This document shows positions 4,107 to 44,205 of a stretch of DNA of 64,000 bases, piece by piece. The stretch comes from Alentia gelatinosa. Lineage: Eukaryota; Annelida; Polychaeta; Phyllodocida; Polynoidae. The DNA lies in assembly GCA_950022655.1 (NCBI GenBank), contig OX465583.1, positions 35,367,360 through 35,431,359 of the forward strand. The letters are read 5' to 3'. The notes under the pieces are model-generated. The model ran no database searches. It was not told where the DNA came from and saw nothing but the letters and a program-made list of their open reading frames with translations. Position numbers and translations under genes: made by a program. Positions within the stretch are counted from its first letter, which is position 1; each line of letters starts with the position of its first letter.

Positions 4107-4440
4107 TATATACCCATGCCGTATTTACTGTAAATACGTACCGTTTTGACATATAACGTAAAAATACTGTACGGACCACTGGTGCGTACAATAAAATACG
4201 GACCACCTTGCCAAACACGTTTATTAACATATCGGTTGTTAAAAATTAAATTAATGATTTTTTTTTAAATTTTGGGTATATAGTAAATATATAACGTCCA
4301 ACCATGCTTGTACAAGTCACAGAACTCGATGATAATTTACGGTTTGTACGGAACTCGGCATAAATGCCTCGTTCCGTACAAACCGTAAATTACAATCTCG
4401 TTCTGTGACTTGTACAGCATGGTCAGGACGTTTTATATAA
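4107..4440 (+). mobile_element. Compound hairpin element, family 1, copy 1
   Basis: The element starts TATATACCCATG (4107-4118). An inverted inner copy, GGGTATATA, lies at about 4274-4282, and the element then runs into a long palindrome (4278-4440). It has no coding capacity. The same order of parts, at low sequence identity, is seen at 22754-23265 and, reversed, at 25750-26045. The first 80 bases and the 3' edge (CATGGTCAGGACGTT) are clearly homologous to the 22.8 kb copy. An asymmetric inverted repeat followed by a terminal hairpin is the plan of non-autonomous Helentron/Helitron2 (HINE) elements; that assignment is inference. I could not see a target duplication. Exact ends are uncertain by some 10 bp. 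Confidence 0.75.
4278..4440 (+). repeat. Long structured hairpin of family 1, copy 1
   Basis: Arms, from outside in: an outer stem with small mismatches (around CCATGC / GCATGG); 14 perfect pairs (4312-4325 with 4400-4413); an 8x8 unpaired bubble (4326-4333 / 4392-4399); 21 perfect pairs (4334-4354 with 4371-4391); TC facing TC (4355-4356 / 4369-4370); 4 pairs GGCA/TGCC; loop TAAA (4361-4364). Every bubble is symmetric in length. On the minus strand the TC/TC mismatch reads GA/GA, a tandem G-A mismatch in a CGAG context. Confidence 0.9.
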
Positions 4441-5545
4441 TTACATTGACATATTCAATATATAATTCGAATGTTGAGCTAAATTTAGAAACGAAGATTA
4501 AAAATAAAGATAAGGAAAACGCCCTGCATAAGAGGGAAACTATATGCATGATATCATATTTTTTCTATATATGATAACCTTTTAAGCCAGAATGATTCTG
4601 AAAGATAAAATCTATGTTTTAACTTACAGTCAGAAAAATGTTTTATATAGTATAGACAACTCCGGGAAATGTCAAGTGTGTATTTATATGACTTACGTGA
4701 CTGTAATTCTGAGGAATGTGTTATAAAATCTATTATAAAAAATCTATTATAAAAAAGAAAATCTATTATAAAAAACCATTTCCCACTCAAAATAGGGGCC
4801 TGGAGGATGACACGAGATTCTACGAGGAATCATGAGAGCTGGCTGGCGGACAGCGTGGGAGAGGTGTGGACAGGGGTCAAAGGTCATCTAAACTACTGTC
4901 AACGTGTGACTGGCCTCTGGCTACCACTGGTAGGGGGCAGCACAGGACAGAGCCAGCGTCTAAACCCTAACCTAACATCCCCGGGGGTTATCCCCCTTGT
5001 CTTGTGATAAGCCGGCCTGTCAGGGGACCTTTCACCAGGGGATATCCCCCGGTCATACAAGCGGGGAGCCCTGTCACACTATAGTCCACACTGGATGTAT
5101 GAAAGTTTGTATCGGTTTATCTGACGATAACTCTTCTCTGTCAACAATATCTCTGTCAACAAGTCTATGAGTTCTATTGTTCAAGCAAGCGTGAGTGTGA
5201 GAGTCAAGATGTGTGTATATAGGGAGTGGTGTGAGATCATCCACTTTAGTTAAGAGGTGCACTGCACTTGTAAATCATTCTAGATCCGTCTTTCACCACT
5301 GCGGGTGGCGAAGAATAACAAAGTCATGATCTACAATCTATATCTGGGCCGTTATAAAACGGTATTACCTTGATGAAAATAACTTATCATTGCGAGAAAA
5401 CATGCACCATATGTTCTAATTCTTATGGAAAAAGTAAAACATGACATTAGAGTCATCAGCTTCAGTTTATTCATTGCAGAAAGAAGAGATCAATTTTTTC
5501 AGAATGATGAATCTACTGGTGAGAGCAATATGAACGAACATATAC
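4441..5545. other. Intergenic sequence, no gene recognised
   Basis: No recognisable frame. Around 4980-5052 two short C/G palindromic patches occur, GGGGGTTATCCCCC and GGGGATATCCCC, 50 bp apart. A run resembling two telomeric CCCTAA units at about 4964 is too short to mean anything. Confidence 0.5.
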
Positions 5546-5554
5546 ACGTACATT

Positions 5555-5557
<3 letters not shown>

Positions 5558-5650
<93 letters not shown>

Positions 5651-5655
5651 CACAC
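5558..5655. repeat. (TA)n microsatellite
   Basis: Almost uninterrupted TA dinucleotides of close to 100 bp, with a few interruptions (TATATTTATA, TACATA). Open frames running through it on both strands, rich in I and Y, are products of the repeat and not genes. Confidence 0.95.
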
Positions 5656-8600
5656 AGTTACCTTACATCTAGGGCTTCCCCTTATAGAATATGATATATA
5701 TACATATAAGCATATAGGGAACAGAGTGATTGCTAGTTCTTCCATCATCCGCAAGGAAATTGTAAGATATCGGCAATGTAGTCGAGAGTCAGCTACTATT
5801 CATCTGTCTTAATTTCTGGAAAATAGTGAGACGAGGCTAAAACCCCTCTATGGCAAACCCAACAAATGTTTTAGAAAAAATCCATTGATAAATAGTCCGC
5901 CACCTGGTGTTTTATTTGGCGTCTGGGTCAAAATGGCTGCCTGCATGACACAATGGCTATGAGCCTCTATACACATGTAAAGCATGCAATGAATTATTGA
6001 CGCAAGGGCTCATACGTTTGGAAGGCGACATCAGAAATTATTAATGCTGAAATGGGCATACTCTTAGGATTAGGTCTTATATTTATCCCCAGTTGCAGAA
6101 TGGATCAATCCTCAGTGTAACACCAGCAGTAAAAGACGGGCGAACTCTATTTGAAAAAATAATCTCATACGAAAATGCACTCTACGCATTTGATGTGGGC
6201 GAGGACGCTGCTTCGGAGAGGCTGTCAAAGGGGAATGTTAAAATGCAGATTAATATAGTCCCTTGAGTCCATGCATAGCAATCTCAGCCCTTATAGTGAG
6301 GGATGGTCGATTGATTAGGGCACTTAGGACTCGGAAGGGTGCATCACTTTTTTCTATTCAGATCTTGTTCTTGTTCTGAGGCCTGCATCAAAGCAGACAA
6401 TAGATAAAAAGGGGGCCCAGAAGAAGGTATGTGGTGGCAGTGGAGAAACCTCTCAAATTACCTCCACAACGAGATTGGTCTCCATGGATACAAAAAACAT
6501 TCGGAGTGCAAATCCGGCGCACTTTTTTCCCCTTTCTCCGTTTTCTTTTGGTGGATCATGTTCGACATTGGTGCTGGTGCATGGACATACATGTATGCAG
6601 GTACATATATGCTTTGAACTGTCGGTACAATACAATGGAAACATTGGCATGTAAAAGGCGCACTGTTCGCAGTGTAGGTTTTTAGAGCAGAAAAGATAAG
6701 GTGGTAAACCTAGTAACCGGTGATATCCATAGGCAATTGTTTTTTTATAGGCGGTTGTAAATAACATCTAGTTAAATGCCTGCTGTGACCTTTTTGGGAT
6801 ATAAATCTGAGGAGTACGGATCATAGTGGCCTCAGCAATAGAGGTTTTTCAGTTATTTCTCGAAATAATTAAATATACAAAAAAGAAATGTTTCGGAGAA
6901 AGAATGTATATGTATATATGTGAATGTATGGGTACGGAACGACACAGCAAGTCAAAGAGTCCGGATATTTCATTCGAGACACTGTAGCCTATATGTGTAA
7001 TACAGCTCAAGCATAAGATCGAAATGTAGGAATCATTCAAAGATATCAGGAATCATTCAAAAATAAAGTGTGAAAGCTAGTATTTTAGTCTTGTTTCCCC
7101 AGGTATATCAGTCTCTATGCTTCATTTATTGTTGGTCACCAGTCACCCAGACGTCCATCTTTTAGTATAGTGGCGAGCACTCTGGGCTGTCTGATACTTG
7201 CATCTCTGGGCAGCCGCTTCCTGTCAGGTCAGACCCAAGTAGGTGGCACACCACACGACCAGGGGCATCGGTGGTAGCGGCATAAAGATAGCACCCAATA
7301 CCAGTCCTGCTCCCACGAGCATCGCCCCCGAGCAGATTAGCTAATTGTGCTGGACCTATGGCTCCACCGAACCGCTTTTTCAGCATCTGAGCTGGCCGCT
7401 GGCTGGCGCTGCGTGCTCAGGATTCCATCCCTGCAGACAGTTCTTCTTTTGTTTTATTGGTCTTTTTAGTTGGTGTTTCTTATCGTATTCCTCCGCAAAA
7501 CTGCAGCCATGATTTCTTGCTTGACAGTGTAACGTCCCCTAGGGGCTTTTTGTATTCATTTTTATTGTTCCTCTATTTATTATACACAAAGTAGGCTCAC
7601 TGTCTGCCACACTCGTCACAAAAAAACCCACTGCAATATCAGATTTCCTTGATGTGGTTAAAGGTAACAAGGTGTTATAAAAGGACTATGGACCGGTTAA
7701 TAAGATAATTTCCTTGAACAATAATTTGATCACTTAGAAAATGAACTGATTTTCTTATAAAAAAACAACAGTTTCTCAGGTGTGCTGTAAAAGAACCCAC
7801 AACTGTATTTTAGGAGATCTCCCATTTAGGAACTCACGGGGGAAATAAAAGATATCACCAAGTAGAGATAGCACCCATACGTGATGGTGAGAAATAATAT
7901 AGGACAGTTTCCCATCTAGTGACTACACTGACCACACAGGATGCTTGTGTGAAAGCATACTTAAGCGTGGGTGGAACCTTCTCTTATCTCCAACCCCTGC
8001 CTTATCTGTGGACACATGTATGCACTGTCTGTTTTGGGGAGTAGTGCAGGGCCATCCTGAAGCACATCGACTGGATGAGGAAAGAGGCCCATGGTTTGAA
8101 CGTCAGTTCCCTGGCCAGGCTGAGTGCTTGTCCTTGTACCTACCTAGTTCCCTGAGGGACAGACAGCTTGACAAGAACCAAGGTGCAGGTTCTTTTACAC
8201 ATGATGTCTACCACTTTCGTCTTTATGTCAGATATTGGCTTTCCGGAGATTATTAAACGAAACGTGCTTAAAATAAATGGTGATAACAAGTAATTAGAAG
8301 AATGAATATATTGAAGCTACAGTCGATTTTCTGGACCAGTATGGGGTAAAAATGTTTTGTATTAAATTCAAAGTCCAATAACAATCATGTATTGAAAGTT
8401 CATGAATCCGATTTTTCTGAATGTTTTCCAAATCCCCACCAGGGAAATGAACCATCAGAAAAATATAGAGAATGAAAGGACTTGTGTACCGACATATTGA
8501 AATCATACGACAATTGGACGTTTTGTATTAAACCCCCACAACATAATCAAAGGAAAAGAACAAAATATAGAGAAATACATATAGACTACACATAATACCA

Positions 8601-9721
8601 CACAGACACATGCAACAAAGTGGCATGTAGGCGTTGGATAAAAGGATGTGTGCTACATGTTACCAATTACAAATGAAAACATATGGCTATGTCGTTTGAC
8701 ACGAGATTCTTTAAGTATGGAGCTGATAATCCTCCTATACTCTTAATACGGTTATTAAACATATATGGCTAATCAACCAAACGTACCTGTCCTTACATTC
8801 CAAAGTTTAGAACTCAATCATATACTACGCAATTCTCTACAGTAGGAATTTATCAGTGTCCTTTATATATCACGGAGGTTGTGTACTACTCATAGTTGCA
8901 GCAATGTGAAAGTGCTGTATGGAGATAACACTTGGACGTAAAGGTCACCTCTATGGTCATCCAGGTCCTGGAAACACCCGTTCTGGCCATTACTTATACA
9001 TAGCTAACGGATATCTGCACTGCTATAGATATAAAACACGCCGACAGATCTGCCTGGCCCGATCTCCTGGGCGGGCCCTGGAAAGGCCGGCCTGGCCATT
9101 GGGTATGTTATGGGGATTGGCAGCAGTATCATCAGTTTATGTAGCTACAGGGGAGGGGGTTTGGTGGTGTAGTGTGTGTGTGTGGTGGCTTGCCATGTGC
9201 ACTGATGACGATAGCTGTACACTATACTCACAGATCAGACTTGGACAGGTGGCGTCATACTTAGGTTAAGGGAAGCTGAGGTATATTTACTCATACTACA
9301 TATATATGAAACTGGAGCTTGTTGGATATGGGAGTGAAACGTACAAATGGGAATATGTTATTTGATTATAAGATCAAAGACCTCTTCAACTAAAGTCTCT
9401 AGACTAATACGCATTATACCTGGTGTCAACCATAGCTCGGTTCTATTTGATAGTAGTGAGATGGCGATCAGAACCAGTAAAAAAACTTCCTTCACTTGCT
9501 TCACAGAGTGTGACTTCTGAGATTATTGCTGCAAACTATCAAAGGCCTTAAAATGGCTGGAGAATAGAAAGCTTTGTTCAAATAAAGATGAAACTGTAGA
9601 ATATGTTTTGTCGATTCACTTTACACCCAAATGTTAAAAGGAATAGACGGATTTTCCTTAGAATTCCTCCAGGGGTTTTACGACACTATATTTACCTGGT
9701 ACTATACAGGGGATTATATAA

Positions 9722-9724
<3 letters not shown>
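5656..9724. other. Intergenic sequence, no gene recognised
   Basis: Frames of up to 116 codons (7945-8256 and 8919-9269, plus) show no domain, no plausible composition and no neighbouring exon, so I do not call them. A CTCF-like match lies at 5897-5910. I see no RNA gene or repeat in the rest. Confidence 0.5.
5897..5910 (-). promoter_or_regulatory. CTCF-like motif match
   Basis: The minus strand reads ACACCAGGTGGCGG, which fits about 13 of 15 positions of the bilaterian CTCF core consensus when the neighbouring bases are included. Binding is inference; a match of this quality can occur by chance in 64 kb. Confidence 0.3.

Positions 9725-9764
<40 letters not shown>
9725..9764. repeat. (CT)n microsatellite
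   Basis: About 20 uninterrupted CT dinucleotides. The minus-strand open frame with an ER-rich tail here is a repeat artefact. Confidence 0.95.
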
Positions 9765-9765
<1 letters not shown>

Positions 9766-10089
9766 AAACAAAGACGATGATAAAGACTATTGGAAGAACA
9801 TTTTGTTTCCTTTGTGTAAAGCAAAATGAGGTTTAGTTTTTTTAAATTGTAATTGGAAGTAACTATATAAACACAATACATCATTTTATAGTGACAAATA
9901 GTCAATGTAATACTTCATAGCCTTAGTCTAAATGGCCACTGGCGTGTGCCTCAAATAGGATGGAGAAATATAAATTGAAAGATGATATTTGTTGCACTCT
10001 ACACAATTAACCTATTGCACATGTGGTTATTGTAATTTGGGTTGATATGTCTGGATTAAAAATGAAGGCCTGTTAGCTGCATTTTCACA

Positions 10090-10177
10090 CACTTTATTCC
10101 AATGTATAAATCTTCTTATATACGTTATATCTGCACTTTATTCCAATGTATAAATCTTCTTATATACGTTATATCTG
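10090..10177 (+). repeat. Perfect 44-bp tandem duplication
   Basis: Two identical 44-bp units (10090-10133 and 10134-10177), each starting CACTTTATTCC and ending ATATCTG. Zero differences between the units indicate a recent duplication. Confidence 0.95.
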
Positions 10178-11207
10178 CACCCTATTTGGATCTTATTTAG
10201 CTCATACCTTACTAACATTGACTGATTGGCTGTCATTGACGTGATTTCTACCAATAAATGCCAGAGAACAAGCAGCTATGGCAAGGTAAGAGTAAGGGCA
10301 CTTCAGTATTTACAAATTCATGCCATCACGCACCTAGGTGATACAAAGCAGTTAATATTATCTGATAGACTAAAGCATGCATCTGGACTGAACGATAGAG
10401 GAATATTGTCATTTTATTAAGGTAGAATGACATGATGATACTCTTATAAATGCCACTTGAGCTTTTATATCCTTTCTGGTAGTTATTTTCCTTAGCTGAT
10501 TATCTACTCTCACCTTTTCAATGCTTCTATCTAAACATCCAATAGCAGAGACACCCATCTGCCATTCAGACCCTAATATGGTTATACCCTAACATTAGGA
10601 CTAGTACATCCTCAGACCATCCCCCAAGCGGCAGACAATTTCACAAATACAAGTGGGTGAGAGAGGAGATAAAGCTGACACATTGCTTCTAGGTGCTCTA
10701 GACTAATCACTAATTCATTGAAAATCGCAGAATGTTTTCACGAACATGTAAAGGCCAAACCTAATCCAGCGGTGAAGTCATCTAACCACAGGCTTGTGGT
10801 CTTTGTTGCTAAAAATATCCATGTATACAATTCTCCACTTTGGCTTGTGAATTGATATGTTTTCAGTATGGGGTGCACAAAGTATATACCATTGTGCTAG
10901 TTAGATTGCTTTGACTGTTTTCACCCACGCAGAGTGGAACCTATGCGATGTTTCTGAGATTCTCAGTATATAGCATGTATTCCTGCTACACATAGTATGC
11001 ATACTTTCATGCAACTAGGGACCTTTATAGGAAGCGTTTTAAATGCATCTAGATGGGAGCTCAGTCCATTTCTTGTTGCTATGGAGACATATTATAATAG
11101 AAACTGCTCCACGACCCAACACGATAAATTTGTCATGTTATCTTTAATAGATGAGCAGAGGTCACCTTAATTGAGTCTGGTTGAGGAGATTTGATTTATA
11201 ATTTCTT

Positions 11208-11330
11208 GAATTTATGGTTGTCCTGGTACCATATCTCCATGGCAGGCCTCAATTTATGGTTCCCTTGTACCATATCTTCATGGCAGGCCTCAATTTATGG
11301 TTGCCCTGGTACTATATCTCCATGGCAACT
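11208..11330 (+). repeat. Three-unit minisatellite, about 42 bp
   Basis: Three units of 41-42 bp (11208-11249, 11250-11290, 11291-11330), each containing AATTTATGGTT, a CCNTGGTACC-like core, ATATCTCCATGGCA and GGCCT. The third unit loses the GGCCT end. The open frame across it reflects the period of about 14 codons and is not a gene. Confidence 0.9.
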
Positions 11331-12125
11331 GATTTTAGCAACTTGGAAACCACACCAACGGATTTGTAGACCTAGAAACCCAAATAAAAAAGGTATGACA
11401 ACATTTTATAGGTAAACTTCTGACTGAGTTATGGGACATAAAATGTTTGGCAGATTGTAATCAGCAGGCCTTAAATACCCAAACTCGAAAAAAGGGTGCG
11501 AAAAAGGGTCGCATGGTATATATACTTTTTACAAGGTACCCCTCTTTGGAGCTTGTTCGCCAAATGCTATTCACCATGGCATATGCTAGCTAGATATATA
11601 TTGACACGCTTTCATCTGAAATCACAAAAAGATCTGCTAGATTAATGCCGTGCAATGTTTATGCAGGATACAGATACACATAAAGATAAAACTAATGCAT
11701 GTTAAATCGATTTAAAACCTTTTTTGCTTTGGGGTGTGACTAATATCACTCCACGTGTTATTGGCAGAACGACTGCTCACTGCTGCCACACCTTACATCA
11801 CCTAACCGCTCTCACTTCGCCACACATTCAAATTTCCCACCCTACCACTTCAAAATCAACATTCACTACGTTCACAATTCTCTAATTTATTTATCTCATT
11901 TCATCATTATCCTAAAATTAACTCAAATATTTTCAAAATATCGTCGTCATTTGATCAATTGATAATTTTTCATATTGTTTAATAAAACATAAAGTTTTAT
12001 AATAAAAAAAACAAAAAAAACCTTTATCCTACAAGACTGCTGTCACTTATCTATTTTCATAACACGTAGCCCGCTAATGATATTTCTTATCTCCTTATTT
12101 GTGTCCATTGTGGTGTTAGTAGAAA

Positions 12126-12263
12126 CAGAACGAGAGTTAGACTTGTCAATGTTTATGCCACGACGGGAAGGTCGTGTATTACTATGCGAAGCATTAGCTG
12201 AGCGTAGTGAGGAACAGACCTAATCAGATTGGCATAGACACCGACAAGTCTAACTCGAGTTTG
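12126..12263 (-). repeat. Structured hairpin with two tandem GA mismatches
   Basis: Arms, from outside in: a short outer stem; GA facing GA (12132-12133 / 12257-12258); 14 perfect pairs (12134-12147 with 12243-12256); a 7x7 bubble; 6 pairs (ATGCCA / TGGCAT); an 8x8 bubble; 5 pairs (AGGTC / GACCT); a 7x8 bubble; 7 pairs with one G-T (12181-12187 with 12202-12208); GA facing GA (12188-12189 / 12200-12201); 3 pairs AGC/GCT; loop ATTA. The last four parts repeat the tip architecture of the other families. Confidence 0.8.
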
Positions 12264-12520
12264 GTTGTGTATTTATCCTACCCCGTCTCCACGACTTTAT
12301 GATATTAGGAAAGTCTGACTCGATTCAGTCCATGTATTACAGCTGTCAGAATTTCTGCTCTGCGGCCGGAACTATTTATACAGGTGCATAATTCCTGAAC
12401 GCTGATTGGTCAATTCTTTTTATTTTTCTAGGTACATAAATTTTACTTTATGTCATGGCACGCAACATAAAATTTGCCTGTGTTAAATAAATGACAGTTT
12501 TTTATTAGGGGTAGGATAGA
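12126..12520 (-). mobile_element. Compound hairpin element, family 3, reversed copy
   Basis: Read on the minus strand, the element begins TATCCTACCCC (12508-12518), carries a body with an ATGTCA..-type small hairpin, repeats the terminus inverted (TTTATCCTACCCC on the plus strand at 12272-12284) and ends in a long hairpin at 12126-12263. The first 25 bases of the body (CCCCTAATAAAAAAC) match the second unit of the 22.3-22.7 kb element. There is no coding capacity. It has the same order of parts as families 1 and 2 but essentially unrelated arm sequence. A HINE/Helentron-like assignment is inference. Confidence 0.7.
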
Positions 12521-13140
12521 TTTGAATACGTAACAAAAACCGCGTAATCCATAGAGTTTGTCAATGTTATGTTACTTGTGAAACATTTATCAAAGAGCCT
12601 TTATCCCTTTGAGCACGAACCAGGACTTCCCCGACAATCGTCTGCTTCTGTGTATAAAGCAGGCAAAACACCTTTAATGAAATAACCGAGGATTGCCAAA
12701 CAGGAGGACTACGCTTTGAATAGTTTCTCTATGAAATACAAAACTTTGATGGTAAAAAAGGAGGTCAAAAGCTCACAATTGTCTGCCAGGTGAAGTTGCA
12801 ATGTCGCCCATAACGTAGCGGACTGAGGGTGTACTGGCTGCGTGGAGATATAAAGTGTGGATTAAAGACTGAATGATAATTTTTTAAGGGTTTTATTTAG
12901 ACTGGACAGCCCTTCGTTCCAAGAACTGATCTCAACGAGCTACCAGTAACTCATTCAGGTGATTTACACAACATTCAAGTGACTAGCACAACATGTTTAC
13001 AATTCGTTTGTGTATATATTATATCGGATAAATATTATACAAGAAATTTTATCATAGATACTGCTATGATGTACTTAGCCTGATGTATGCGGTCAGAGTG
13101 TGAGGAACTTCATGGTACTGTTAAGAGTAGCAATCACTTT

Positions 13141-13890: not shown

Positions 13891-13989
13891 TGGTCCTGAT
13901 CGTGCCCTGGTATTGGCTCTTTTAGTCTGTAGTAGCTGTTCTTGTGCTTTTCTTTATATATGAATATTAGGGTAGGATGTAAGCGGCAG

Positions 13990-14282
13990 TTTTATCTCAC
14001 CCCAGATATTTTTTCTCCATAGACTTAACATTGGAAACTCGTATCTAACACCCATTAGATATTTAGGAAATATATCCAATGGGGGATAATGTCAAAAATG
14101 TTAGCCCATTAGTCAATATTAAGGGTGAGATAAATTCAGAAACCCATTCAAGTTTAGGGTCAGAGCTCGATCCCATCTCGTTTGAATCACATAGCAATTC
14201 ACGCGGCTTCGCTTTGTGAATTACTACGTGATTCAAACTCGATGGGATACGAGCTCAGACCCTAAACCTTCATGGGTTTCCT
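13990..14282 (+). mobile_element. Compound hairpin element, family 2, copy 1
   Basis: The element starts TTTTATCTCACCCC (13990-14003). It has an inner inverted copy GGGTGAGATAAA (14123-14134) and then a hairpin from 14139 to 14280. Within the body is a small hairpin (CCCATTAGATATTT / AAATATATCCAATGGG, about 14053-14086). The copy at 34874-35164 is roughly 90% identical over the whole length by eye and shares both ends, which fixes the boundaries to within a few bases. There is no reading frame. The flanks differ between the copies and show no clear target duplication; both copies are followed by T. This fits a Helentron-type insertion but is not proof. Confidence 0.85.
14139..14280 (+). repeat. 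Structured hairpin of family 2, copy 1
   Basis: Paired blocks: 9 bp (14139-14147 / 14272-14280), 4x4 bubble, 10 bp, 1x1, 7 bp GAGCTCG, one-base bulge, 8 bp, TC facing TC (14178-14179 / 14239-14240), 11 bp, 5x5 bubble (ATAGC / ACTAC), 7 bp (AATTCAC / GTGAATT), 2x2 (GC/TT), 3 bp GGC/GCT, loop TTC. The minus strand of the tip reads GCGAAGC (14206-14212), the 7-mer known to form an exceptionally stable single-stranded DNA mini-hairpin. Confidence 0.9.
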
Positions 14283-14429
14283 CTATAGTACTGAACGATA
14301 CAGTATAATTAACACTTGTTCTGATTTCGATAGCATTATCATGCAGTATTCTCAGCTAGTTTCTATCAGCTATATTACATGCATCAAACAGGAGATCGTC
14401 ATAGTCTATGTATGAATGCATATGAGAGG

Positions 14430-20240: not shown

Positions 20241-20242
20241 GA

Positions 20243-20330
20243 TTTTACCAAGTATTTTACACATACGGAGACAGTCTATTTTCTATTATTATACACTTTG
20301 AATTAGCCATTTTCTACCTTCAAATCTGGT
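20243..20330 (-). mobile_element. Fragment of a family 1 hairpin element
   Basis: The run ACCAAGTATTTTACAC, then CATACGGAGACAGTC, then TTATTATACACTTTGAATTA is collinear with 25857-25925 (hairpin outer arm plus inner inverted repeat of the copy at 25750). The other hairpin arm is absent, so this is a half element, truncated at the stem. Confidence 0.6.
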
Positions 20331-22272: not shown

Positions 22273-22735
22273 ATTTTATCCTACCCCGTCATGTGTTTTG
22301 AACTTCATATGTCACCCGTGGCATATAGATATCTTATGGCAGAACCGTGGCATTCAGTCACACCATGTTAAGTCTATGGAGATTTATATGACGGGTAGGA
22401 TAATTACTGAATATTTATGTTACTGCTTTAGAGAAAAAGCACATCACACTGTGCATCAAGTCAAAGGCTTTATCCTACCCCTAATAAAAAACGCCATAGG
22501 TTTAACATGGAATTTGTTTATGTCACGGGCGTGACATAAAATGTTGTTTATGCCACTACTTTCTAATACTGAAAAAATGTGGAAGCGGGGTAGGATAAAA
22601 TCTAGATGCCACTCAGTTGAGTTTGAGATTACTTATGTCACCCATTTTGTGGGCTCTGCAATATCACTCGTCTTCGACTCGTGAAATAAGGGAGCCCACA
22701 AAATGCGTGACATAAATAAACTCAGACTCAAACTC
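22273..22735 (+). mobile_element. Compound hairpin element, family 3, double-unit copy
   Basis: Two units lie in tandem. Unit 1 runs from TTTTATCCTACCCC (22274-22287) to ACGGGTAGGATAA (22391-22403). Unit 2 runs from TTTATCCTACCCC (22469-22481) to GGGGTAGGATAAA (22587-22599). The terminal hairpin follows at 22617-22735. Unit 2 contains a perfect 10-bp hairpin (TTTATGTCAC / GTGACATAAA, 22517-22540). The start of unit 2 matches the 12.5 kb copy. It begins 45 bp after a MITE and ends about 18 bp before a family 1 element. No reading frame belongs to it; the 78-codon frame here is incidental. Confidence 0.75.
22617..22735 (+). repeat. Structured hairpin of family 3
   Basis: Paired blocks: 9 bp GAGTTTGAG / CTCAGACTC (one G-T), 5x5 bubble, 9 bp TTATGTCAC / GTGACATAA, 1x1, 14 perfect pairs (22643-22656 / 22692-22705), 8x8 bubble (22657-22664 / 22684-22691), 3 bp CAC/GTG, TC facing TC (22668-22669 / 22679-22680), 3 bp GTC/GAC, loop TTC. 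On the minus strand the tip is C-GA-GTC-GAA-GAC-GA-G. Confidence 0.9.
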
Positions 22736-22844
22736 GTTACGTCTCTTGATCTTTATATACCCATGACGTATATATCGTAAATACGCACCGTTTCGCCGTA
22801 TAACGTATAAATGTTATACTGCACCGGGTTCCGTATAGCAGTGT

Positions 22845-23018
22845 ACTGAACACGTTCAACGCACGTTGCTATGTATACTGAACACGTTGACACACGTTGT
22901 TATGTATACTGAACACGTTGACGCACGTTGCTATGTGAATTGAACACGTTGATGCACGTTGCTATGTGAATTGAACACGTTGAACAGTACACTCTTATAC
23001 CCGTATAAGAGTGTACTG
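22845..23018 (+). repeat. 31-bp tandem array closed by a perfect palindrome
   Basis: Four to five units, each with TGAACACGTTGA, GCACGTTGCTATGT and TATAC or GAATT; CACGTTG appears twice per unit. The array is preceded by AGTGTACTG and followed by CAGTACACT, which starts a perfect 16-bp inverted repeat with a 2-base centre (22985-23018). Confidence 0.9.
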
Positions 23019-23105
23019 ACAACTTTATGCTATCGTTGGATTTACGAATTCGTCGTAATTCTTGTATTTAAGTTCTGGTTAAATTTCAACATTTACGGGT
23101 ATATA

Positions 23106-23265
23106 ATAAATATAGAACGCCCCACCATGCTCATACATGCTACAAAACTTGATAAACATTAACGGGGAATACGGAACTCGGCGTAAACGCCTCGTTCCGT
23201 ATTCCCCGTTAATGTTCATCTCGTTTTGTAGCATGTAAGGCATGGTCAGGACGTTCTCTATAAAT
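23106..23265 (+). repeat. Long structured hairpin of family 1, copy 2
   Basis: Same layout as 4278-4440: outer stem around CCATGC / GCATGG, 13 perfect pairs (23136-23148 / 23223-23235), 8x8 bubble (23149-23156 / 23215-23222), 21 perfect pairs (23157-23177 / 23194-23214), TC facing TC, 4 pairs GGCG/CGCC, loop TAAA (23184-23187). Paired positions differ from copy 1 in a compensated way; see findings. Confidence 0.92.
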
Positions 23266-25749: not shown

Positions 25750-25915
25750 TACTATACGGAAACAGGGTTACTGTGGCCGTACGGCATTAATACGCGGTAA
25801 AATTGTCGGTAATACGAACCGATGCCGAAGGCAGAGGTTCGTTTTATCGACAATTTTACCAAGTATTTATGACGTACGGACACAGTCAACCTGTTTTCGT
25901 ATTATTATATACCTT
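25750..25915 (-). repeat. Structured hairpin of family 1, reversed copy
   Basis: Outer arms are imperfect (ATACGGAAACAGG with CCTGTTTTCGTAT; CCGTACGGCATTAATAC with GTATTTATGACGTACGG). Inside are 13 perfect pairs (25796-25808 / 25848-25860), 5x5 bubble (GTAAT / TTTAT), 7 pairs ACGAACC / GGTTCGT, GA facing GA (25821-25822 / 25834-25835), 4 pairs TGCC/GGCA, loop GAA (25827-25829). Confidence 0.88.
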
Positions 25916-26045
25916 AAATTATCCAATTTTTACCTTTGTTTTTGGGCGAATTTTTGGATTTCGCCGCTGTACATGCCCCATATGCCACATACATACCCCG
26001 GACGTCACCTAGGTGTCGTACGGATATAAATATGACATGGGTAGG
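25750..26045 (-). mobile_element. Compound hairpin element, family 1, reversed copy
   Basis: Read on the minus strand it starts CTCCTACCCATG (about 26034-26045), followed by a CGTATTTA-like stretch as in the 4.1 kb copy. It has an inner GGTATATAATAATACG (about 25898-25913) and ends in a long hairpin (25750-25915). The start is intermediate between the family 1 (TATATACCC) and family 3 (TATCCTACCC) starts, which links the two. Body and arms are strongly diverged but the order of parts is kept. Confidence 0.7.
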
Positions 26046-26248
26046 AGCGGGCAGTATGTGTAGGATATACTACCACAGGTATATAATAATATTACTGTCC
26101 GCAATGTTTCAGTAAGGCATTGATACGATCACATATTGTCACGAAAGTGCTGTCACTTTAAGCATGGTCTTGTCACTGTAAAGGCCGCTGGCCACTGCTG
26201 CCGACGCACTCCAACAAGACTTGCCACACACTCCGACACAGATTAGGC

Positions 26249-33470: not shown

Positions 33471-33490
33471 AAACCTTAGTATCCGCTTTT

Positions 33491-34873: not shown

Positions 34874-35164
34874 ATTTTATCTCACCCCGGTATTTTCATC
34901 CATAGACTTAACATTGGGAACTCGTATCTAACGCCCATTAGATATTTAGGAAAAATATCGAATGGGGGATTATGTCACAAATTATAGCCCATTAGTCAAT
35001 ATGAAGGGTGAGATAAATTCGGAAACCCATTCAAGTTTAGGGTCAGAGCTCGATCCCGTCTCGTTTGAATCACTACGTAGTTCACGCAGCTTCGCCTTGT
35101 GAATTACTATGTGATTCAAACTCGATGGGATACGAGCTCAGACCCTAAACTCTCATAGGTTTCC
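34874..35164 (+). mobile_element. Compound hairpin element, family 2, copy 2
   Basis: Near-full-length second copy of the element at 13990-14282: start TTTTATCTCACCCC (34874-34888), inner GGGTGAGATAAA (35006-35017), hairpin to GGTTTCC (35164), then T. The hairpin keeps every bubble: TC facing TC, 5x5 (TACGT / ACTAT), 7 bp with one G-T, 2x2 (GC/TT), AGC/GCC, loop TTC. The minus strand again reads GCGAAGC at the tip. Some pairs near the tip have decayed, as expected for a non-autonomous copy. Confidence 0.85.
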
Positions 35165-35169
35165 TGTAT

Positions 35170-37120
35170 ATTATCCCTATATTCTCGCGATATCGCTATT
35201 TTTTATTATATAAAACTCTGCGAGCTCGGGACATAAGGTCGGGCTGAGGACCACGTTCATTCAACGTCCAAAAAGCCCAAGACAGTATTCTCAGATACTT
35301 ATCAAGGCTATATGTTTCGTCATCAATTGTGCCTGTTTTGTTATCGAGGGTATCACATGATGAAATCTAGACCAATCATACCATAGTTTGGATCCGTGGA
35401 CTGTCATGGCTTCCAAGCTGATCAGACAACAAATCGCCGTTTCTATCAATTATTGAAGGTATACATTAATAGGGAACAGGTTTCAGGTAAAAAGAATCCG
35501 AAGTTACACGGCAAGTATCTTGGGAAAATATTCGTGATCTCCACCACGTAACTTTGAAATTCATCGCTCGGCTTGTAACCAATATCCCTCTAGTAACCTC
35601 TGATTCACTTAACATATAGAAAGAACTATATTGAAATATGGCAGGTATCGCTTCTTAGATCATATCGGCACTACATTCCATTCATATTCCGATCCAATGG
35701 TTTCTATTTCAAAATGATACGACTCTCATGAGGGAGATATCCTCACGCCACTATTGTATGCAATTCTAATATTCCACTCAATCAAATGTTTCATAAGGCA
35801 ATTCCCTTCCATCTATCCCTCCCATACAGCGGAGCTAATGGTGAAGTTTCAAAGGTATATCATCCATTAAGCGGTTGCGTTGGCTTAAGTAGATCTATTT
35901 GATGGGGCTGGAATACAACCATTTGCTACAAGCTGATAAACTAAAACATCATTAGGGCCTCGAGAATGCTTTGATTCCACTAGTTTCCGCAGGTAAATTA
36001 CATTACCGAAGTATATATGTATAGGAGCCTATTGTTTCGATTAAAGATACCCCCAGTGCTTTTAACGAGACGCATTTAAAGCTCGCCTCCCGACAATTCA
36101 TACATTACCGGTCTGGATATAGAACGTAATTCCCATCTGTACAATTGGAGTCATGAAGAGAGGAACGAAATGGAATCCTGCCCGAGAGAATACGTAGGTT
36201 TTTATTGACATGCAATCACGAAATCCTAGCGTGTTCCGGCACTCGTGACAACCATACTATCAGATTTCTCCTGGATTAGAAAAAAAACGTAATGTCACAA
36301 AACTTGTGTTCACATCCTGCTCGTATAAAAATAATCAAATCTCTGTGTATTCTTTTTCTAAAGTTCGGACTTTTGGTAGAAGTTATTTAGTGTTTTCGTG
36401 CGGATGTCAATATTGCGTGTGCGACCTGTTGAGTTTAATTTTGCTAATTTCATGAAAATCGGGATTCATTGTGATCAGGACAATGCGAATTTCTCATAGC
36501 GACAGAGCAGGGAGGAGGCTTATATAAAAGCCGCCATCTGAATGCATCTTTTAATCATGCCAAATTTCATGTTATATTGTAACAAAGTTAGTGATCTTAT
36601 GTGCTGGCCTTTTCTTGTGATTGGTTGTTTCGAGTCTGTTGCATTCCTTTAGCTCCAGATGACATTTCTACCTACAGAAAAGCAGCTCCCCTTCGTCACC
36701 TGATTCGCCATCATTAATGTGTCGTCGTTCCAGACAAAGTTGATGGTTTTAAGCTTCATGTGTTTAATAAGGAAAGCCTTCCAAAGTTGAATATGAACAT
36801 TATCCCATTCCCTCTACATGTACAGACACCTTTGAAACAAAGTTCGCTTAAATTTCTAATAGAATAGCTTTAATAGTTATGAATAACAAAGTCATATAGC
36901 ATTTGTCGCTATACTTTCAACAGAATAAGTTAAGAAGCTGTTTTTTTCACGATAAATGGTGATGATTTCGCTGACATCCCAAATTCACCAAAAGAAATAT
37001 GGTACCCTACAGTCACCTCCACAGCCCTAACCTTTACATACATCCCCTCCTTCCTCCCTAGCCGCCACCAACATATCCCCGCAGTAAAAAAGTCGAACAA
37101 GAAGGAAGCGGTCGGAAGTT
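35170..37120. other. Intergenic sequence, no gene recognised
   Basis: AT-rich, no long frames, no tandem repeat or long palindrome noticed. Confidence 0.5.
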
Positions 37121-37360
37121 AACAATATCCTAATGGCCGACAGTGGCTGGGCGCCGACGGGCGTCGGTCTAGCACTGACCACCAGAAGGAGTGGCGCCAA
37201 GCCGCGCCAAGCCGCTCTGCAGCACGCCTACTGGTTCGCGGCGCCACCAGAAGAGGGCGTGACCGGCACTAAAGCTGCTTGATGACGCCGGGAGTGGTTT
37301 GCGGTGGCCCGGCGAGCTGCTCTGAGTGACTCTACGTCTTTACCTTGAGCAGCTCCCAGC
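37120..37360. promoter_or_regulatory. GC-rich island with paired GAGC(A/T)GCTC sites
   Basis: A sharply delimited GC-rich stretch with several CpG, containing GAGCTGCTC (37314-37322) and GAGCAGCTC (37347-37355), 33 bp apart centre to centre, the hairpin CCGAC/GTCGG near 37158, a duplicated CCACCAGAAG (about 37181 and 37244) and a CTCF-like match. It looks like a CpG-rich regulatory element, but no transcript start or adjoining exon was recognised. Confidence 0.35.
37247..37259 (+). promoter_or_regulatory. CTCF-like motif match
   Basis: CCAGAAGAGGGCG fits the CTCF core with one substitution; CCACCAGAAG, which overlaps its start, also occurs about 63 bp upstream. Binding is untested. Confidence 0.3.
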
Positions 37361-38110
37361 AGTGGTGAGGGTGGGAGTGGGTGGGGTAGGGATGATTAAG
37401 CTGATTGTACCTTTCTGACCCGCGCTACTGATATTAGTTGACTGGTGAGAGAAGTAGGTCAAAGTGTGGATGGATAATCGCCTGGAAGTCCCAGGTGAAT
37501 TAATGTAGGGTGGGTTCTTGTGGCTGTACTTGGGGAATACTAATTGAGTCATTGTTTTATTACTCGGAGCGTACATGTTATCCTCACGAAATTCCCCAAA
37601 CACTGTCGAATGTACAGCTCTGTAAATTTTATGATTCGTCATTAGCGTATTGATTGTAAGGGTTATGATTTATTTAGGTGGTAACATCACTAGTTAGGAG
37701 AGAAGATGATAATTCTGACTTAAGTGATATTATTCATAATTGGGAAATCACTGTTTGATTTGGACAGTCATTCTTTCATCCCAGTAAGACCTAATATACC
37801 ATGACCAGGAAAAATGGATAAAAATGGTCCATGGATGTAAAACATTACATGCAACTTTGTGGTTCGATTCCCATTGCATATCCTTGAGATGAAGGTAAAA
37901 TTAACTATTTACGTATATCTGTTAATATATATAAATGCCTTTGCATTTTATTGCAACGGATTCTTCACGGCCGAATTAATTGAATTCTCTAAAAGGTGTT
38001 TCTATTCACTGCATACGCCAAAGATGCCCCATGTCTTATTTATAGTGTTTCCATGTAGAAGTAGCTATCAAATCATATCCATGATGTATCAAACTGAGAG
38101 AGCATCTTAC

Positions 38111-38310
38111 TCGGCGTTTATGCTAGATGACTAAAAACATGGTAACTGTAGATCATCTGGCCAATAGGCATCAGGTGATGCTAGATTACGTAATATCAGC
38201 CAAAATAATCGTTGTCTAGACAACTAATTCAAGCCGGATTGAAATAGTCGCCGGTGTCGGAGAGTGCTATATAGTGGTCAGGTGGTGTCAAATTGCGTAA
38301 TATGAAAAGC
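38111..38310 (+). mobile_element. Diverged copies of the ACACTAGACGA MITE
   Basis: CGGCGTTTATGCTAGATGACT, then ACTGTAGATCATCTGGCC and CATCAGGTGATGCTAGATTA, are collinear with 21992-22085. A second partial copy (GTGGTCAGGTGGTGTC, AATTGCGTAATAT) follows at about 38270-38305. Both are degraded and have no clear right terminus. Confidence 0.6.
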
Positions 38311-41300
38311 TTCTGAACAGCTGTGAAATCAATATGAATGACTCCACATGGCATGTGTATTATAAATGACCATGTCGTGTCACTGGCAATCTCTGCCTAT
38401 GTGCACTTCCCTGATGCCTATATGAGCTTCCCTGATGAGTTGATGCGTGCTATAGGTTTTAGCTTCGTGTTGTACTGTGGCCGAATCAAAGTCATTTGTG
38501 ACAGTATGATATGCCCCAGGTCTCTTGTACAGAAATCTTAGTTGTCAACATGAGTTATATGAATTACAGTGTATCGTTACTTAACATGCATCTCCTGATT
38601 TTAACAGGTTTCAACCAAAGCCATTCAGCCTGCTCCTGTATAAGACACCAAAACGACTTCCGCTGATGGAACTAAGTGGGTGGAAATGGAAAAGAATCCT
38701 TGTATTGGCATTCAACACTTGTTTAAGGTATCTGCATAATTTTAATTTTTCATAATCCATACACTGTTGGAAATCGACGAAACTGACGAAAATCGATGGC
38801 TTTGTGGACGGGCGTTCGTGAACTACGAGAGACTGACGTGAAGCAATACAGGAGCATTAGCGAGTTCATTACTATGTCGTCCACCCCAAGTTGTTTACAA
38901 AGCTGCCTGTTTCTGAAACCAGCAATGAGGACTTTTAATGTTCTCGATGGGATTATAAACGGTTATTGGATCTGACAACTTAACAACAATGGTTAGTGGT
39001 TCACCTGAAGACCTCGTAATAGATGGATAATCGAGCACAGGACAAATACTGATGTAGATGCTCAGATCCTAGTCAGCAGGTATCTGCACCAAATTATGTC
39101 TGGTTCATTCCCATGAACTTCCTTTTGCTGTCAGATAAGTTTGAAAACCTGAAGAAAATCTACAACGACGAGATTGGATGAAAACTACGATAGGGTTTGA
39201 TAGGTCTCGACCTAATTGATTTGCTAAAATTGTGTTAGATGTTGACTCGTCCAGTTACCGCGGAAAATGACTGGGTGACCTAGACAAAACAGGTATCTCT
39301 ACGAGTAGTTTCCTCATCTAGAGCTACAAGGTTATGATAACAGTCGGATCCTCAGCTGGTCTGGCACTACACCTGTAATCAATTGGTCATCTAGTGCACC
39401 TGTGGCGGCAGGGGGTGGTCTGACGGACACCTGGAGCATCGATGTGGCGAAAGGGGCCACGGAACAGGTCGTCTCTTTCCAATCCATACAACACAAATGC
39501 CTTGCTCATATCTTCAGAATTCCACACTATGCTTACTGGTGTAAATTTACTTTATTTTTATATTGATTCTCCCCTTGAATTTATGCAATAAATTTCATGC
39601 TGAATTCTTAACCATTTGAGGCATGAGAATTCCTTGAGGCAGCCCAAGCTTGGATAAAACATTTAAACTTTACTCGGAAGTTCCTGGCCCAAATATCAAA
39701 TAATCTTGAAATGAAGTACGCAATTAATTCTGAGTATTGGTGGGGTGTAAAATTAACAAATACATACTTTTTGCATTTCATGTAGCCATAGCAAGATGTT
39801 TAAAAATGCTTATGTTACTAAAACAAATGGCTCCCTATAATGAACATACCATGGTGACTGTGGTATGCCCCTTACGTATAGCACAGGAAGTTCGTCGCAA
39901 TAGCCGACTATACCCTTACTACAACGGTCTCCTGCACAAATTTAGATGATATAATATATTCAGCATAGTGTGTGTTGTATGTTAAAAGAGTATTGCAGTT
40001 TATATTTTGCCCTTACTGAGTAGTACTAATTGGTATGCAAGCTGCCGCAGTAGTAAAGGTAGAATGAAGACTGGCTACTCCTGTGTCTTGATATGCCTAA
40101 AGCAGACACAATCAGCATGGTTGCGGGGCTGATTACCTTTATCTTTGGCACAATTAGTTCATTACTGACTTTCCCTCACGGTGAGATTGGTCTCTTCAGT
40201 CCAACGGGTTTGACGCGGTGGTGAACGCTAATGAACGTCACCAGGTGGCGAATTGATAATAACAGAAATCACGTCTGAGGAGAATAGACGAGACTACAGG
40301 AGACTTCGGGAACCCTCGCGGGAACTCAATGATGAAATGTTGCAGAACACTTCTTTTCGAACTCCTTGGAGCATAGGCATAAATAATGGGCTAGGCAATA
40401 AGTCAGCAGGTACGCAAGAATACAAATCAAAGGATAAATCTGTGAAAATGTAAGCATGAAAAAATATTGCGGTTAGTGAATTTGATAATCTGTCTTGCTG
40501 CGATCAGCTAAGGTTATTTCCTTCATGTCTCTAAGTGAGAGCGGTTCTGGTTTTTTTTTAGGTTTTTAAAAAAGAGTATGAGAAGCAACGAAAGATATAA
40601 GATGGGACAGAGCAATATCCTACGGCCAAAGATAACAAGGTCAGAGGAGTAGAAGCCAAGGAGTTAGAGAAGGGAGGGTGAAGGCAAGTATGATTGAAGG
40701 GTACGAATTGTAAGGTGTTAGTGAACACAGTAGACTCTTGTCGGAACCATTATCCACTCTCCTGAATGCGTCCCCAGCATGACCTGTCTGATGTAGAGCA
40801 TCGCGTCAGGAACTGTGCTAATCCCCGTCCTGCTCTAATGGAGGCGAGCAGCTCAGAGATTATTAGCATACAAATGACACCTTGAGTTAATCCCTCTGGA
40901 GAACTGACCTAGATAACACTGAGCTGCTACTTATTACATCTTCGTGACCTCATGTATACCTTTTTGGTACCATCTAAACTAAGTAACTACATTTCCCCTT
41001 TGACTTTTCAATTACATGGGAGTATATACATGAATGTTCAAAACGCAGGGGTTTATGCAATAAACATCTTGAGTTATTGGAGTTAACAATCTTACAGGAA
41101 ATTCATAGTGAATACTGATAAAACTTGAACAGTTATAATCTGTGGTTTATGATTGTTATCATTCATTATGGCCAGAGAGCTCAGTCACCCTATTAATACA
41201 CACCTTTCACTTACGATACACAGACTGGTATTTCTCCCGAATTGGGGGTAAATGGTCTGCTACCATGGGCCACATTCCATTCCAGACAAATTGGGAAGGA

Positions 41301-44090
41301 TATCTTTACCACAGTAATTCTCCAAGTAAGATTTTTTATTTTTAATTTTTTTAATTTTCGTTGTTTATCCTGCAAGGACTTCAGCTATATGCCGGTGTGA
41401 ACTGTCCTTACAGTACAAGGTACAAGCTCAGTACAAATTCCCAGCTTAGCCATACAAGCGTAAGATTTTTCCTTAGTTACTAACACAAACTACAGTACTG
41501 TTTCACCTAAAAGGTTTACAGATTTCAATATCAACAACAATACAGTTAAATATCAGTCTGGTATGAGGAAACACCTCAAACTTTTGGCAGATCAAAAAAT
41601 AAATAGTCTCAGTTCGATTTTATAGTTTGCATCCAAGGTAACCTAATTACTATCGTTGAGTGGTCCATTTCGAGGGCTCTCTAGTTGTATTTGTTAATTC
41701 CTTTATCATTTGAACCATCAGATGAGTAACAAATGCCAGATTAGCTTAGATTAGAGTCCATATTTTGCTGTATTTTTGTCTTTGTGTATTTTTCACGTTA
41801 TTTTGTTAAAAAAAAATTTGCGAGAAATCACATGTCACATACTCTGTAGAAGCAAGATCTGATGGGAGGGGTTACGGGTAACCAGAAACACATCTCTCTG
41901 TTAGCGTCACATATGTGTGTGCATGCCATGCAGGCTGAACACTTCAGGTTGCAGTTTCACTTTCGGTTTAGAAGTTCCCTAACACGAACCATGGAGTTAG
42001 TCTCAGGTGGAGTTCTCCACGGTGGTGTCCTGTGGCCCGCCATGGAGGTAAGGGAAGCTCACCGGCTGCCATCCATACCTGTCCGGTTACTCCTGTGCGG
42101 GCACTGTGGAGGATTCCGCGCGGGCCTTGGATGTCACAGGAAAGGACCCACCTGACACTTAGACCTGCAGACTGCAACAGGGCTCAGCTGTTCCTAAGTC
42201 AGTCTCTTATAGAAACTATCTCGGAAGTTATTGATACTTAAAGCCAAATCAATATTACTATATCTGATGATATATATTCGTGGGACGTTTATTTGTATCC
42301 AGATATGTGTTATATTCATGGCATATAGGCTCAAAGCCCAAAGGTTAACACTCTGTCTCATAGTGTGGGTGGGTGGGTTCCAAAATGGCGATGAGCGTCC
42401 TCAGAGCTGGTGGCTCCCTCTTTGAGGCGTGGGTCACAATGTGGATAGTCTGGGAGCCACCAAGGGGCCGCAAATGTCCACGCTCAAATTTCCCAATTAT
42501 CCTCGATTATTGTTGATGTCGTTCTGTTCACAATATGCATATAATGTATGCATGGAAAATAATTTCCTTTGGGTGATAGAAAATTCCCAACACTAATTTC
42601 ATTCACCTAAGGACCTATTGTTTATTAAGGTGTTAAATATGAGTCCTTTGATATTTTTCCCTACCTCGGGTTAGCTGTCTTAGCAAATTCATGGAAAGAG
42701 CTCTGCTTACACCCCATCCTACAACTCCGAGAGGAGAACCTAAATCATATTGTCTCCAGCTTTGAAGGGAGACGAATTCGAAGCAAAGCCAAGTTAAAAT
42801 GATCACTTCCCACTCAATTATGAATGAAATTCACCCATAACTCAATTATAATTGCACCGTCTATCAGAATCTAATGCTATCAGATTATATAATGGGTCTA
42901 ACCCAAATAATGATATCGTGGATTGATCTGAATGTATCATTAAATAAGAAAAGCGATGACCAACTCTTGCGATAATCCATAATCAGTCACTGCGGATTCT
43001 TATTTGCCCATGCTACCATCACAGGCAACATATTTTATGAAGACTCGGGTCAGGAATTTATTTGGATTTGGATTAGCTTTAATGTCTAAACATCAAAAGG
43101 CAACAGACTTTAGATGCGATGTTTTGTATCCCAAAAGCAGCATTCAGATTTGCCAGACAAGGCCACCCAGTGGCAAATCCTCTTTTACACAAGGCAGTGG
43201 CCCTGTTTTATCAAATGCTTGTTTTTCGTGACACGGTTATTTTCACATGAAATATAAATTAACACCGTCCGAAGTACAAAGGCCAAGATCAGACACCAGA
43301 TGGGGCGGCGCGCGTCCAGCACGGTGTTCCCAGAATTAGGTGCGGGAGATTTGTCGTCGCACGCCTCAGCCGTTACACATCGATCGTGTTCCACTAATGG
43401 TTAATTAGAGCTGACATGAAATAGCCACACTAATGAGATTGCCATGTTGGCCCTCGGATTATGTAATATCAAATTCCAGGTGTGGCGGGGAGATTTATGA
43501 TAGGCCTTGGAGGATCACAAGACATCCCCCTGACCCAATGCTCGTCGTAATGGCGCCATAGTACAAATCAGATTTTATTTTTCCACTATTATGTAACAAC
43601 CAAGAATTGACATGAACAAAATCCTTGCCGAGGGGTGGAAATTAATATTCATGATATGCTAATGAGACCCTTATGTGGGTTCAATCGTGTCCTTGGTATG
43701 GAACAGAAGCAGGGTGCGGTTAGGCTATCGGGAAGTGTCTCATTGTGTTTCCATGGTAATTAGTTGTGTTTGTCATCAATATGAGCACAGGGTAAAACAG
43801 GAGCGACAGGTCCCCCTCCCCCGCTACAACGCCCCTGGCTTGCTCACCTGGTCGTGCCATGCGTGGGGTAATAAGAGAAAACGTAGTTACTGAGCCCGTA
43901 GGGATGCTCCTTCGAGGTCGTTTGTACCACATTCAATATGTCAATATGTCAACGCCATTTTATTCACTTACTAAGTCAGAGATTCATAGCTTTTTACTTT
44001 AGGCACAGTGCGCCTGAACATTGTTTATAGTGCATCCTTAGCAAAGGGTAGTATTTCATAGACGTTTGGCCATACGTATATGATAATTTA
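38311..44090. other. Intergenic sequence, no gene recognised
   Basis: Only short unrecognised frames. Items seen: a CTCF-like match at 40238-40250, GAGCAGCTC at 40846-40854, and a 10-bp inverted repeat GGTGGCTCCC (42409-42418 / 42452-42461) with a 33-nt loop. Confidence 0.5.
40238..40250 (+). promoter_or_regulatory. CTCF-like motif match
   Basis: TCACCAGGTGGCG agrees with the CTCF core at 12 of 13 positions. It is the cleanest of the matches here, but there is no neighbouring gene to interpret it. Confidence 0.35.
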
Positions 44091-44099
44091 CAAAAGCTG

Positions 44100-44205
44100 A
44101 GTTCCTGTTTTTGCACGTGTAAAATACGCAGTAAAATCGTCAATCAGATGAACCAATGCCGCAGGCCGCCAGTGGTTTGATGCATTGAATCAGTCTTCAG
44201 ATCAA
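44100..44205 (-). mobile_element. Degraded family 1 hairpin fragment
   Basis: AAAATACGCAGTAAAATCGTC, then GAACCAATGCC and AGGC, align with 25785-25832 (left arm and tip of the reversed family 1 copy). The right arm survives only as TGGTTTGATG, so the hairpin is largely lost. Confidence 0.5.

Follow-up and report, generated by a model that had tools for sequence, protein, structure and literature searches.

A putative superfamily of non-autonomous transposons with large terminal hairpins in the annelid Alentia gelatinosa

A 64,000-nucleotide stretch of the Alentia gelatinosa genome (contig OX465583.1, positions 35,367,360 to 35,431,359; hereafter the window) carries short elements that are built on one plan from sequences with little in common: a 5' end of the form TTAY..ACC, an inner inverted copy of this end, and a hairpin, each arm about 65-70 bp long, that reaches the 3' terminus. 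In the genome, which comprises 1.23 Gb in 101 contigs, this plan is followed by four abundant families (A to D) and by several rarer families. We interpret them as non-autonomous transposons of one superfamily that move by a single-strand (rolling-circle or HUH-like) route with the help of a putative enzyme acting in trans, a reading to which we assign a probability of roughly 0.6. Taken separately, there is good support for a single superfamily served by one machinery, and a single-strand route is likely.

Abundance, insertion and target

The pattern of hairpin elements is real and exceeds chance. The string TATATACCC occurred 23,627 + 23,455 times (47,082) in the genome, compared with 8,455 + 8,517 (16,972) for the same letters reversed, a 2.8-fold difference. 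Whole-genome searches with A, B, C and D returned 3393, 2914, 6869 and 4215 matches, respectively, totals that represent first-look candidates unverified as copies. The best 40 candidates of each search were scored, and the flank and end counts given below are drawn from these top-scoring copies, a sample in which shortened copies would not appear. Unit and hairpin together were covered, with sharp limits, in 40/40 scored copies of A, 40/40 of B and 39/40 of D; the best copies matched those in the window at 94-98% identity for A and 97-99% for B. The rarer families E, F, G, H, C2 and B3 were met by chance in the flanks of other copies. TATATACCC also forms arrays with a spacing of about 42 bp (G000:C1:1850108-1851175 and C1:1082098-1082358), which are possibly a tandem repeat grown from the 5' module of element A (compare L040:600-900).

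The unit and the hairpin insert together and precisely, with neither duplication nor loss of target bases at six empty sites. These sites correspond to A in locus L068, for which L058, L064 and L065 provided uninterrupted counterparts; A inside an E-type hairpin (L064); A inside a D element (L049); B inside another B hairpin (L037), with one C-to-T change at a CpG by the junction; C within a local repeat (L096); and B in a local tandem repeat (L020), where the comparison was made by eye. The first-pass annotation had named independent insertion of the hairpin and the TAT..ACCC unit, or target duplications, as the outcomes that would speak against its proposal, and neither was seen at the six sites. 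The same sites exclude a hitch-hiking hairpin. A target duplication of TA or NTAY was rejected on the basis of these sites and of the flanks, in which the 5' TTAY is constant within each family whereas the 3' NTAY varies.

The true 5' end is TTAY, located 1-4 bases ahead of TAT..ACCC. The 5' ends of A (TTACTATATACCC), B (TTATCTCACCCC), C (TTATCCTACCCC) and D (TTATTATATACC) all start with TTAY, and the 3' ends (A ..CTATATAA, B ..CTCTATA, C ..CTTCATA and D ..CGTATA) lie at or near the hairpin foot. The four families have a common target, TA(N6)W^NTAY. In the flanks of 71 copies from families A, B and C, T was found at position −9 in 51/71 and A at −8 in 38/71; position −1 was T or A in 68/71 (T in 52/71), followed by T at +2 in 68/71, A at +3 in 67/71, and C or T at +4 in 62/71. 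This set equals 72 copies minus one duplicate, with tandem joins kept in; it derives from 24 of 30 A loci (29 copies, as some loci hold two or three), 29 of 30 B loci, and 16 of 20 C loci parsed at the 5' end, 14 of which entered the count. In a larger set, T at +2 and A at +3 were present in 32 and 32 of 34 copies of A, 37 and 34 of 38 copies of B, and 25 and 25 of 28 copies of C. Here 34 of 39 3'-end pieces were parsed, four more were added by eye and L130 was left out; 4 A, 1 B and 4 C rows were omitted as tandem joins, of which the C row L088 is probably none. Family D was less strict, with T at +2 in 25/32 and A at +3 in 27/32. For D, 34 of 40 pieces were parsed (one of the six missed is a 5' piece), L142 (TTAT) and L176 (TTAC) were filtered out, and a tandem join at L178, parsed two bases off, is included among the 32. 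At +4, A prefers C (C27:T4) and C prefers T (T17:C3, G3), with C18, T8, G4 and A3 in B and C16, T5 and A1 in D. The family differences at +1 and +4 in A, B, C and D fit no simple rule.

Elements are also joined to each other. An exact junction of an A tail with an A head occurs at 71 scattered places in the genome, and the reversed pattern at 0. Two A tails meet within 0-8 bases at 6 places, and 6/6 have a four-base RTAY spacer (reversed control, 1 + 1), the spacer expected under the target rule when two elements insert from opposite sides. Tail-to-head joins across families were found for D to A (L051), D to B (L022), A to B-like (L049), B to B3 (L038), C1-like to C (L087), and C to B-like (L137 and L139); the join at L178 is within a family, D to D. 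In the window, a relative of A (A2) adjoins element C directly, tail to head. The proposal of the first-pass annotation that the elements belong to one superfamily is thus supported by the plan, the target, the duplication-free insertion, the cross-family joins, and the fold and geometry of the hairpin that the families have in common.

The elements of the window (subTIR, subterminal inverted repeat) are the following.

4103-4440, plus strand: element A, 338 bp, with the 5' subTIR TTACTATATACCC at 4103-4115, the inner inverted copy GGGTATATAGTAA at 4274-4286 and a hairpin at about 4289-4440 that has two TCxTC internal loops; 3' flank TTAC at 4441-4444.
About 12117-12519, minus strand: element C1, with a decayed 5' end near 12519 (CTATCCTACCCC), an inner inverted copy at 12284-12273 (minus reading) and a hairpin at about 12262-12126; the 3' end is uncertain, 12117-12123.
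13992-14287, plus strand: element B, 296 bp, TTATCTCACCCC..GGGTGAGATAA plus hairpin; 3' end CCTCTATA, 3' flank GTAC.
20241-20296: fragment, a short match to a D-type hairpin.
22276-22403: inverted unit without hairpin, TTATCCTACCCC..GGGTAGGATAA and then TTAC, separate from element C.
22470 to about 22751, plus strand: element C, with TTATCCTACCCC at 22470, an inner inverted copy to 22598, a hairpin at about 22612-22745 and a 3' end whose family form is CTCTTCATA.
About 22752-23263, plus strand: element A2, with a hairpin at about 23110-23263; 3' flank ATAT.
25753-26089, minus strand: element D, 337 bp, with TTATTATATACC as its 5' end at 26089, and the inner copy and hairpin at 25906-25753 (minus); 3' flank GTAT (minus) at 25752-25749.
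34877-35170, plus strand: element B2, 294 bp, a relative of B; 3' flank TTAT.
44102-44166: fragment, a short match to a D-type hairpin.

The seven compound elements reported in the first-pass annotation each fold as an inverted unit plus a large hairpin, and its two fragments do match D-type hairpins over about 56-65 bp, but several coordinates had to be corrected. The elements at 12126 and 25750 lie on the minus strand, with the ACCC end at the higher coordinates and the hairpin at the lower ones, and the element at 25750 runs to 26089 instead of 26045. The stretch 22273-22735, described as one element, resolves into the hairpin-less unit at 22276-22403 and element C, since 39/40 C matches (all but the window itself) begin at query base 209-221, which corresponds to window 22458-22470. 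One C match (C5:42211466) has a relative of the hairpin-less unit nearby in the opposite orientation. This unit may be a derivative after hairpin loss or a separate mobile unit. Element A2 contains an internal minisatellite at 22856-22985 with units of about 31 bp, as in HINE elements. A long (TA)n tract at 5540-5660 dominates automatic inverted-repeat lists of the window.

Hairpin fold and folding strand

The claim that the hairpin is alike in fold and not in sequence held: compensatory changes and a similar geometry accompany little common sequence. On the question of unrelated sequences, pairwise alignment of 11 hairpins (55 pairs) gave scores clearly above shuffles for A/A2 (83), C1/C2 (24), A2/D (20) and G/H (18) and mildly above them for six further pairs (scores 13-16, z 3.8-4.4); the other 45 pairs (z <3) were nearer to the shuffles. 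Both sides of a base pair had changed at 14/60 pairs in A hairpins (12 sequences), compared with 1-8 in slid controls, and at 19/63 pairs in D hairpins (7 sequences), compared with 4-7. When the 3' letters were shuffled 500 times, the observed value for A was reached by 0 to 4 shuffles over five measures; for D it was reached by 0 on four measures and by 46 on the measure of further pair types.

Symmetric 2x2 loops recur in the stems. Among 16 end-oriented hairpins, 19/26 of these loops have the form TCxTC, mostly CTCG/CTCG, compared with 6/293 2x2 loops in simulated hairpins. The TCxTC form was present in 36/43 and 39/43 copies for the two loops of A, in 18/19 copies for the mid-stem loop of B and in 4/7 copies of D, and a TTCA/TTCA loop near the foot of B was found in 19/19 copies. 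The apex is centred 71.5-79.5 nt from the 3' cut in 12/14 hairpins, the other two being C2 (57 nt) and the F copy in L013 (84 nt). For E, H and B3 the cut could be placed to within a few nt (E apex 74.5 or 71.5), and the geometry of F refers to the orientation defined by its ends (apex at 77 nt in L051 and 84 nt in L013; L054 was also measured). Where present, an apical TCxTC (or inverted) loop is located 66-71 nt and a mid-stem TCxTC loop 40-47 nt from the cut.

TCxTC on the top strand reads GAxGA on its complement, which makes the bottom strand the probable folding strand. Its loop contexts include CGAG/CGAG and TGAA/TGAA, in which tandem G.A pairs are sheared and very stable. With loops counted in, the top-strand mismatches of the hairpins were C.T 69 times and A.G 9 times, hence mostly G.A on the bottom strand, and the bottom-strand fold was predicted to be more stable in 14/16 hairpins, in A by a mere 0.1 kcal/mol; both counts take the orientation of F (L051) from the loop motif instead of the ends.

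Near-unrelated families that have the same kind of hairpin and the same target point to one enzyme that reads shape and not letters. Such an enzyme would recognise the shape of the hairpin, most probably that of the bottom strand, whose loops would present tandem G.A pairs at fixed distances from the cut. It would cut before NTAY on the top strand or after RTAN on the bottom strand, both at the 5' boundary of the element and in the target. Recognition by stem length and G.A loops would allow many unrelated hairpins to be accepted.

Several observations weigh against this interpretation or restrict it. Arm-to-arm gene conversion could possibly yield compensatory changes without selection. Within families conservation is no higher in the loops than in the stem (A 0.948 and 0.959 versus 0.952; B 0.987 versus 0.974; D 0.786 versus 0.823), and the case for selection thus rests on recurrence between families, together with the inference that arm-to-arm gene conversion would erase such loops. 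The C consensus folds without a 2x2 TCxTC loop, though CTCG is present in both apical arms, and B is without an apical loop. In family F, the copy in L051 (2498-2658) has its apical loop inverted with respect to its own ends (GA x GA), unlike that in L054, and no TCxTC loop forms in the fold of the L013 copy, whose apex lies at 84 nt. As to the strand, D2 and F2 are predicted to be more stable on the top strand, G.T versus A.C mismatches between families (27 to 33) do not differ significantly, and within families (69 to 100, pooled from non-independent copies) the difference is weak. The target is not identical among families, given that the bases at +1 and +4 vary by family and D holds T at +2 in 25/32. 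The hairpin-less unit at 22276-22403 is not accounted for. No transposase was detected, and the term single-strand therefore rests on the absence of duplication and on the tail-to-head joins, both of which other mechanisms could also give.

Partner enzyme and rival explanations

The genome was searched for enzymes that might serve the elements. Helitron_like_N (PF14214) had one match in 1.23 Gb, in L070 (C7:36820500-36830499), a decayed Rep-helicase with what we take to be an OTU-like stretch. The 10 kb around this match contained four loose TAT..ACCC strings, none of them alike; neither paired ends nor a hairpin of this kind was present there. PIF1-helicase had 9 matches genome-wide (three on contig C1, four on C7, one on C2 and one on C9); PIF1 pieces on C7 lie about 14 kb from the Rep match, and the three matches spread over C1 are taken as host PIF1. 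No partner with TTAY..ACC ends was seen near the PF14214 and PIF1 matches, of which just the surroundings of PF14214 were read at length, so that autonomous copies may have been overlooked. Y1_Tnp (PF01797) gave 0 matches in the genome at E 0.001, and 5/14 control genomes were positive.

The first-pass annotation had placed the elements among non-autonomous Helentrons/Helitron2. According to this explanation they are ordinary HINEs with an expanded 3' palindrome whose Rep-helicase has been lost, is very rare or is unassembled. Rep-helicase remnants do exist in the genome, if rarely, and Drosophila DINE-1s likewise are not known to have a local partner in some species. The order of parts (5' subTIR, inner subTIR, 3' palindrome, optional tandem repeats, no duplication) is that of a HINE (PMC4067079, PMC7492417). 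However, the target is NTAY with TA at −9/−8, not T-rich or TT; the inner repeat and the 3' end are separated by about 150-160 bp, not 38-60; and the arms measure about 65-70 bp, not 5-10. Moreover, there is a single Helitron_like_N match, yet the best A and B copies are 94-98% and 97-99% identical. The assignment is thus not demonstrated, and we consider both Helentron membership and this HINE explanation to fall somewhat short of an even chance.

A bolder explanation, which we hold tentatively and think possible though on the unlikely side, is a separate class of eukaryotic single-strand transposons in which one putative enzyme other than a Rep-helicase mobilises many sequence-unrelated families. 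This enzyme would recognise the bottom-strand hairpin by its length and G.A spacing and would insert 3' of RTAN. We found no description of such hairpins in the open-licence literature searched, and their absence from print is not claimed. Repeat families are usually set by sequence similarity; here a transposon end appears to be set by shape, and families joined by hairpin length and mismatch spacing would be missed by sequence searches. If found, the enzyme would be a structure-guided DNA inserter of eukaryotic origin, which would account for the joint mobilisation of unrelated short repeats. A defined end, target and fold make the partner question of HINE-like elements testable, and recognition of the bottom-strand G.A shape, the most interesting of these suggestions, can be tested directly.

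Rather unlikely is an IS200/IS605- or REP/RAYT-like system, with a eukaryotic single-tyrosine HUH enzyme that is possibly guided by base pairing. In its layout the left-end hairpin of the bottom strand would stand directly 3' of an RTAN that remains in the flank, and RTAA would close the right end. This bottom-strand layout matches that of IS608 (PMC5934647), and the bottom-strand mismatches are mostly G.A. In addition, the +4 target base agrees with the fourth base of the element itself in both A (C27:T4) and C (T17:C3, G3), with a Fisher value of 3e-7 for base C against T. In contrast, neither B (C18:T8) nor D (C16:T5), both of which start with TTAT, obeys the simple guide rule, and a general guide-pairing rule, fitting A versus C and failing in these two families, was rejected. 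The genome also has no Y1_Tnp match, and to our knowledge tail-to-head multimers are no hallmark of IS608.

We regard as improbable that the hairpin acts as RNA, either as a processed precursor or as a structured cis-acting RNA, with the DNA fold being incidental. Bottom-strand RNA folds were predicted to be more stable in 14/16 hairpins, and tandem G.A loops are stable in RNA as well, but the hairpin foot is the DNA junction and the loop and apex distances run from the cut site. Most improbable of all is a cut-and-paste miniature inverted-repeat transposable element, with the TAT..ACCC pair as an ordinary DDE terminal inverted repeat and the hairpin hitch-hiking: the pair alone does resemble such a repeat and a hairpin-less unit exists at 22276-22403, but this explanation is already contradicted for A-D by the location of the hairpin inside the inserted unit with its foot at the 3' junction, by the six empty sites without target duplication, and by the tail-to-head tandems.

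Comparison with known systems

In a HINE, one subTIR is set back 2-4 nt from the 5' end and the other 38-60 bp from the 3' end, the palindrome measures 5-10 bp, and insertion is into T-rich targets without duplication (PMC4067079); the oyster Cg_HINE has a 60-bp right module and TT sites (PMC7492417). The Helentron/HINE/DINE-1 group (HLE2), including Cg_HINE, is like the present elements in the subTIR pair, the 3' palindrome, the absence of duplication and the high copy number. The subTIR pair is 12-13 bp in A, B, C and D, within the range of about 11-15 bp used for Helentrons and HINEs. The present elements differ in that the subTIR is at the very 5' end and the inner copy much further from the 3' end, and in hairpins that are several times longer in the arm, contain G.A/TCxTC loops and have a similar geometry across families; neither a short palindrome nor a T-rich or TT target was found. 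Canonical Helitrons (5' TC, 3' CTRR, A/T insertion) were considered as well and rejected, as the ends here are 5' TTAY and 3' ..TATA(A)/CATA.

IS608 inserts 3' of a TTAC that is kept in the left flank, and its subterminal hairpins are read with guide pairing (PMC5934647). Read on the bottom strand, the present elements are like IS200/IS605 members such as IS608 in the hairpin by the cut, the tetranucleotide kept in the flank and the absence of duplication. They differ in a far larger hairpin, in a genome of eukaryotic size without a detected Y1 transposase, and in a guide rule that fails in two of four families. The resemblance to IS608 is probably best treated as a working likeness and not as membership. 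Bacterial REP/REPIN sequences, which are moved by RAYT, are also non-autonomous palindromes that are short and numerous and carry a GTAG-like tetranucleotide at one end; unlike the present elements, they are palindromes of 20-40 bp without a subTIR pair. Finally, the integron attC site is a folded single strand that is recognised by its shape and has little sequence conservation, a likeness to the present hairpins, but it is used by a tyrosine recombinase and follows another junction rule.

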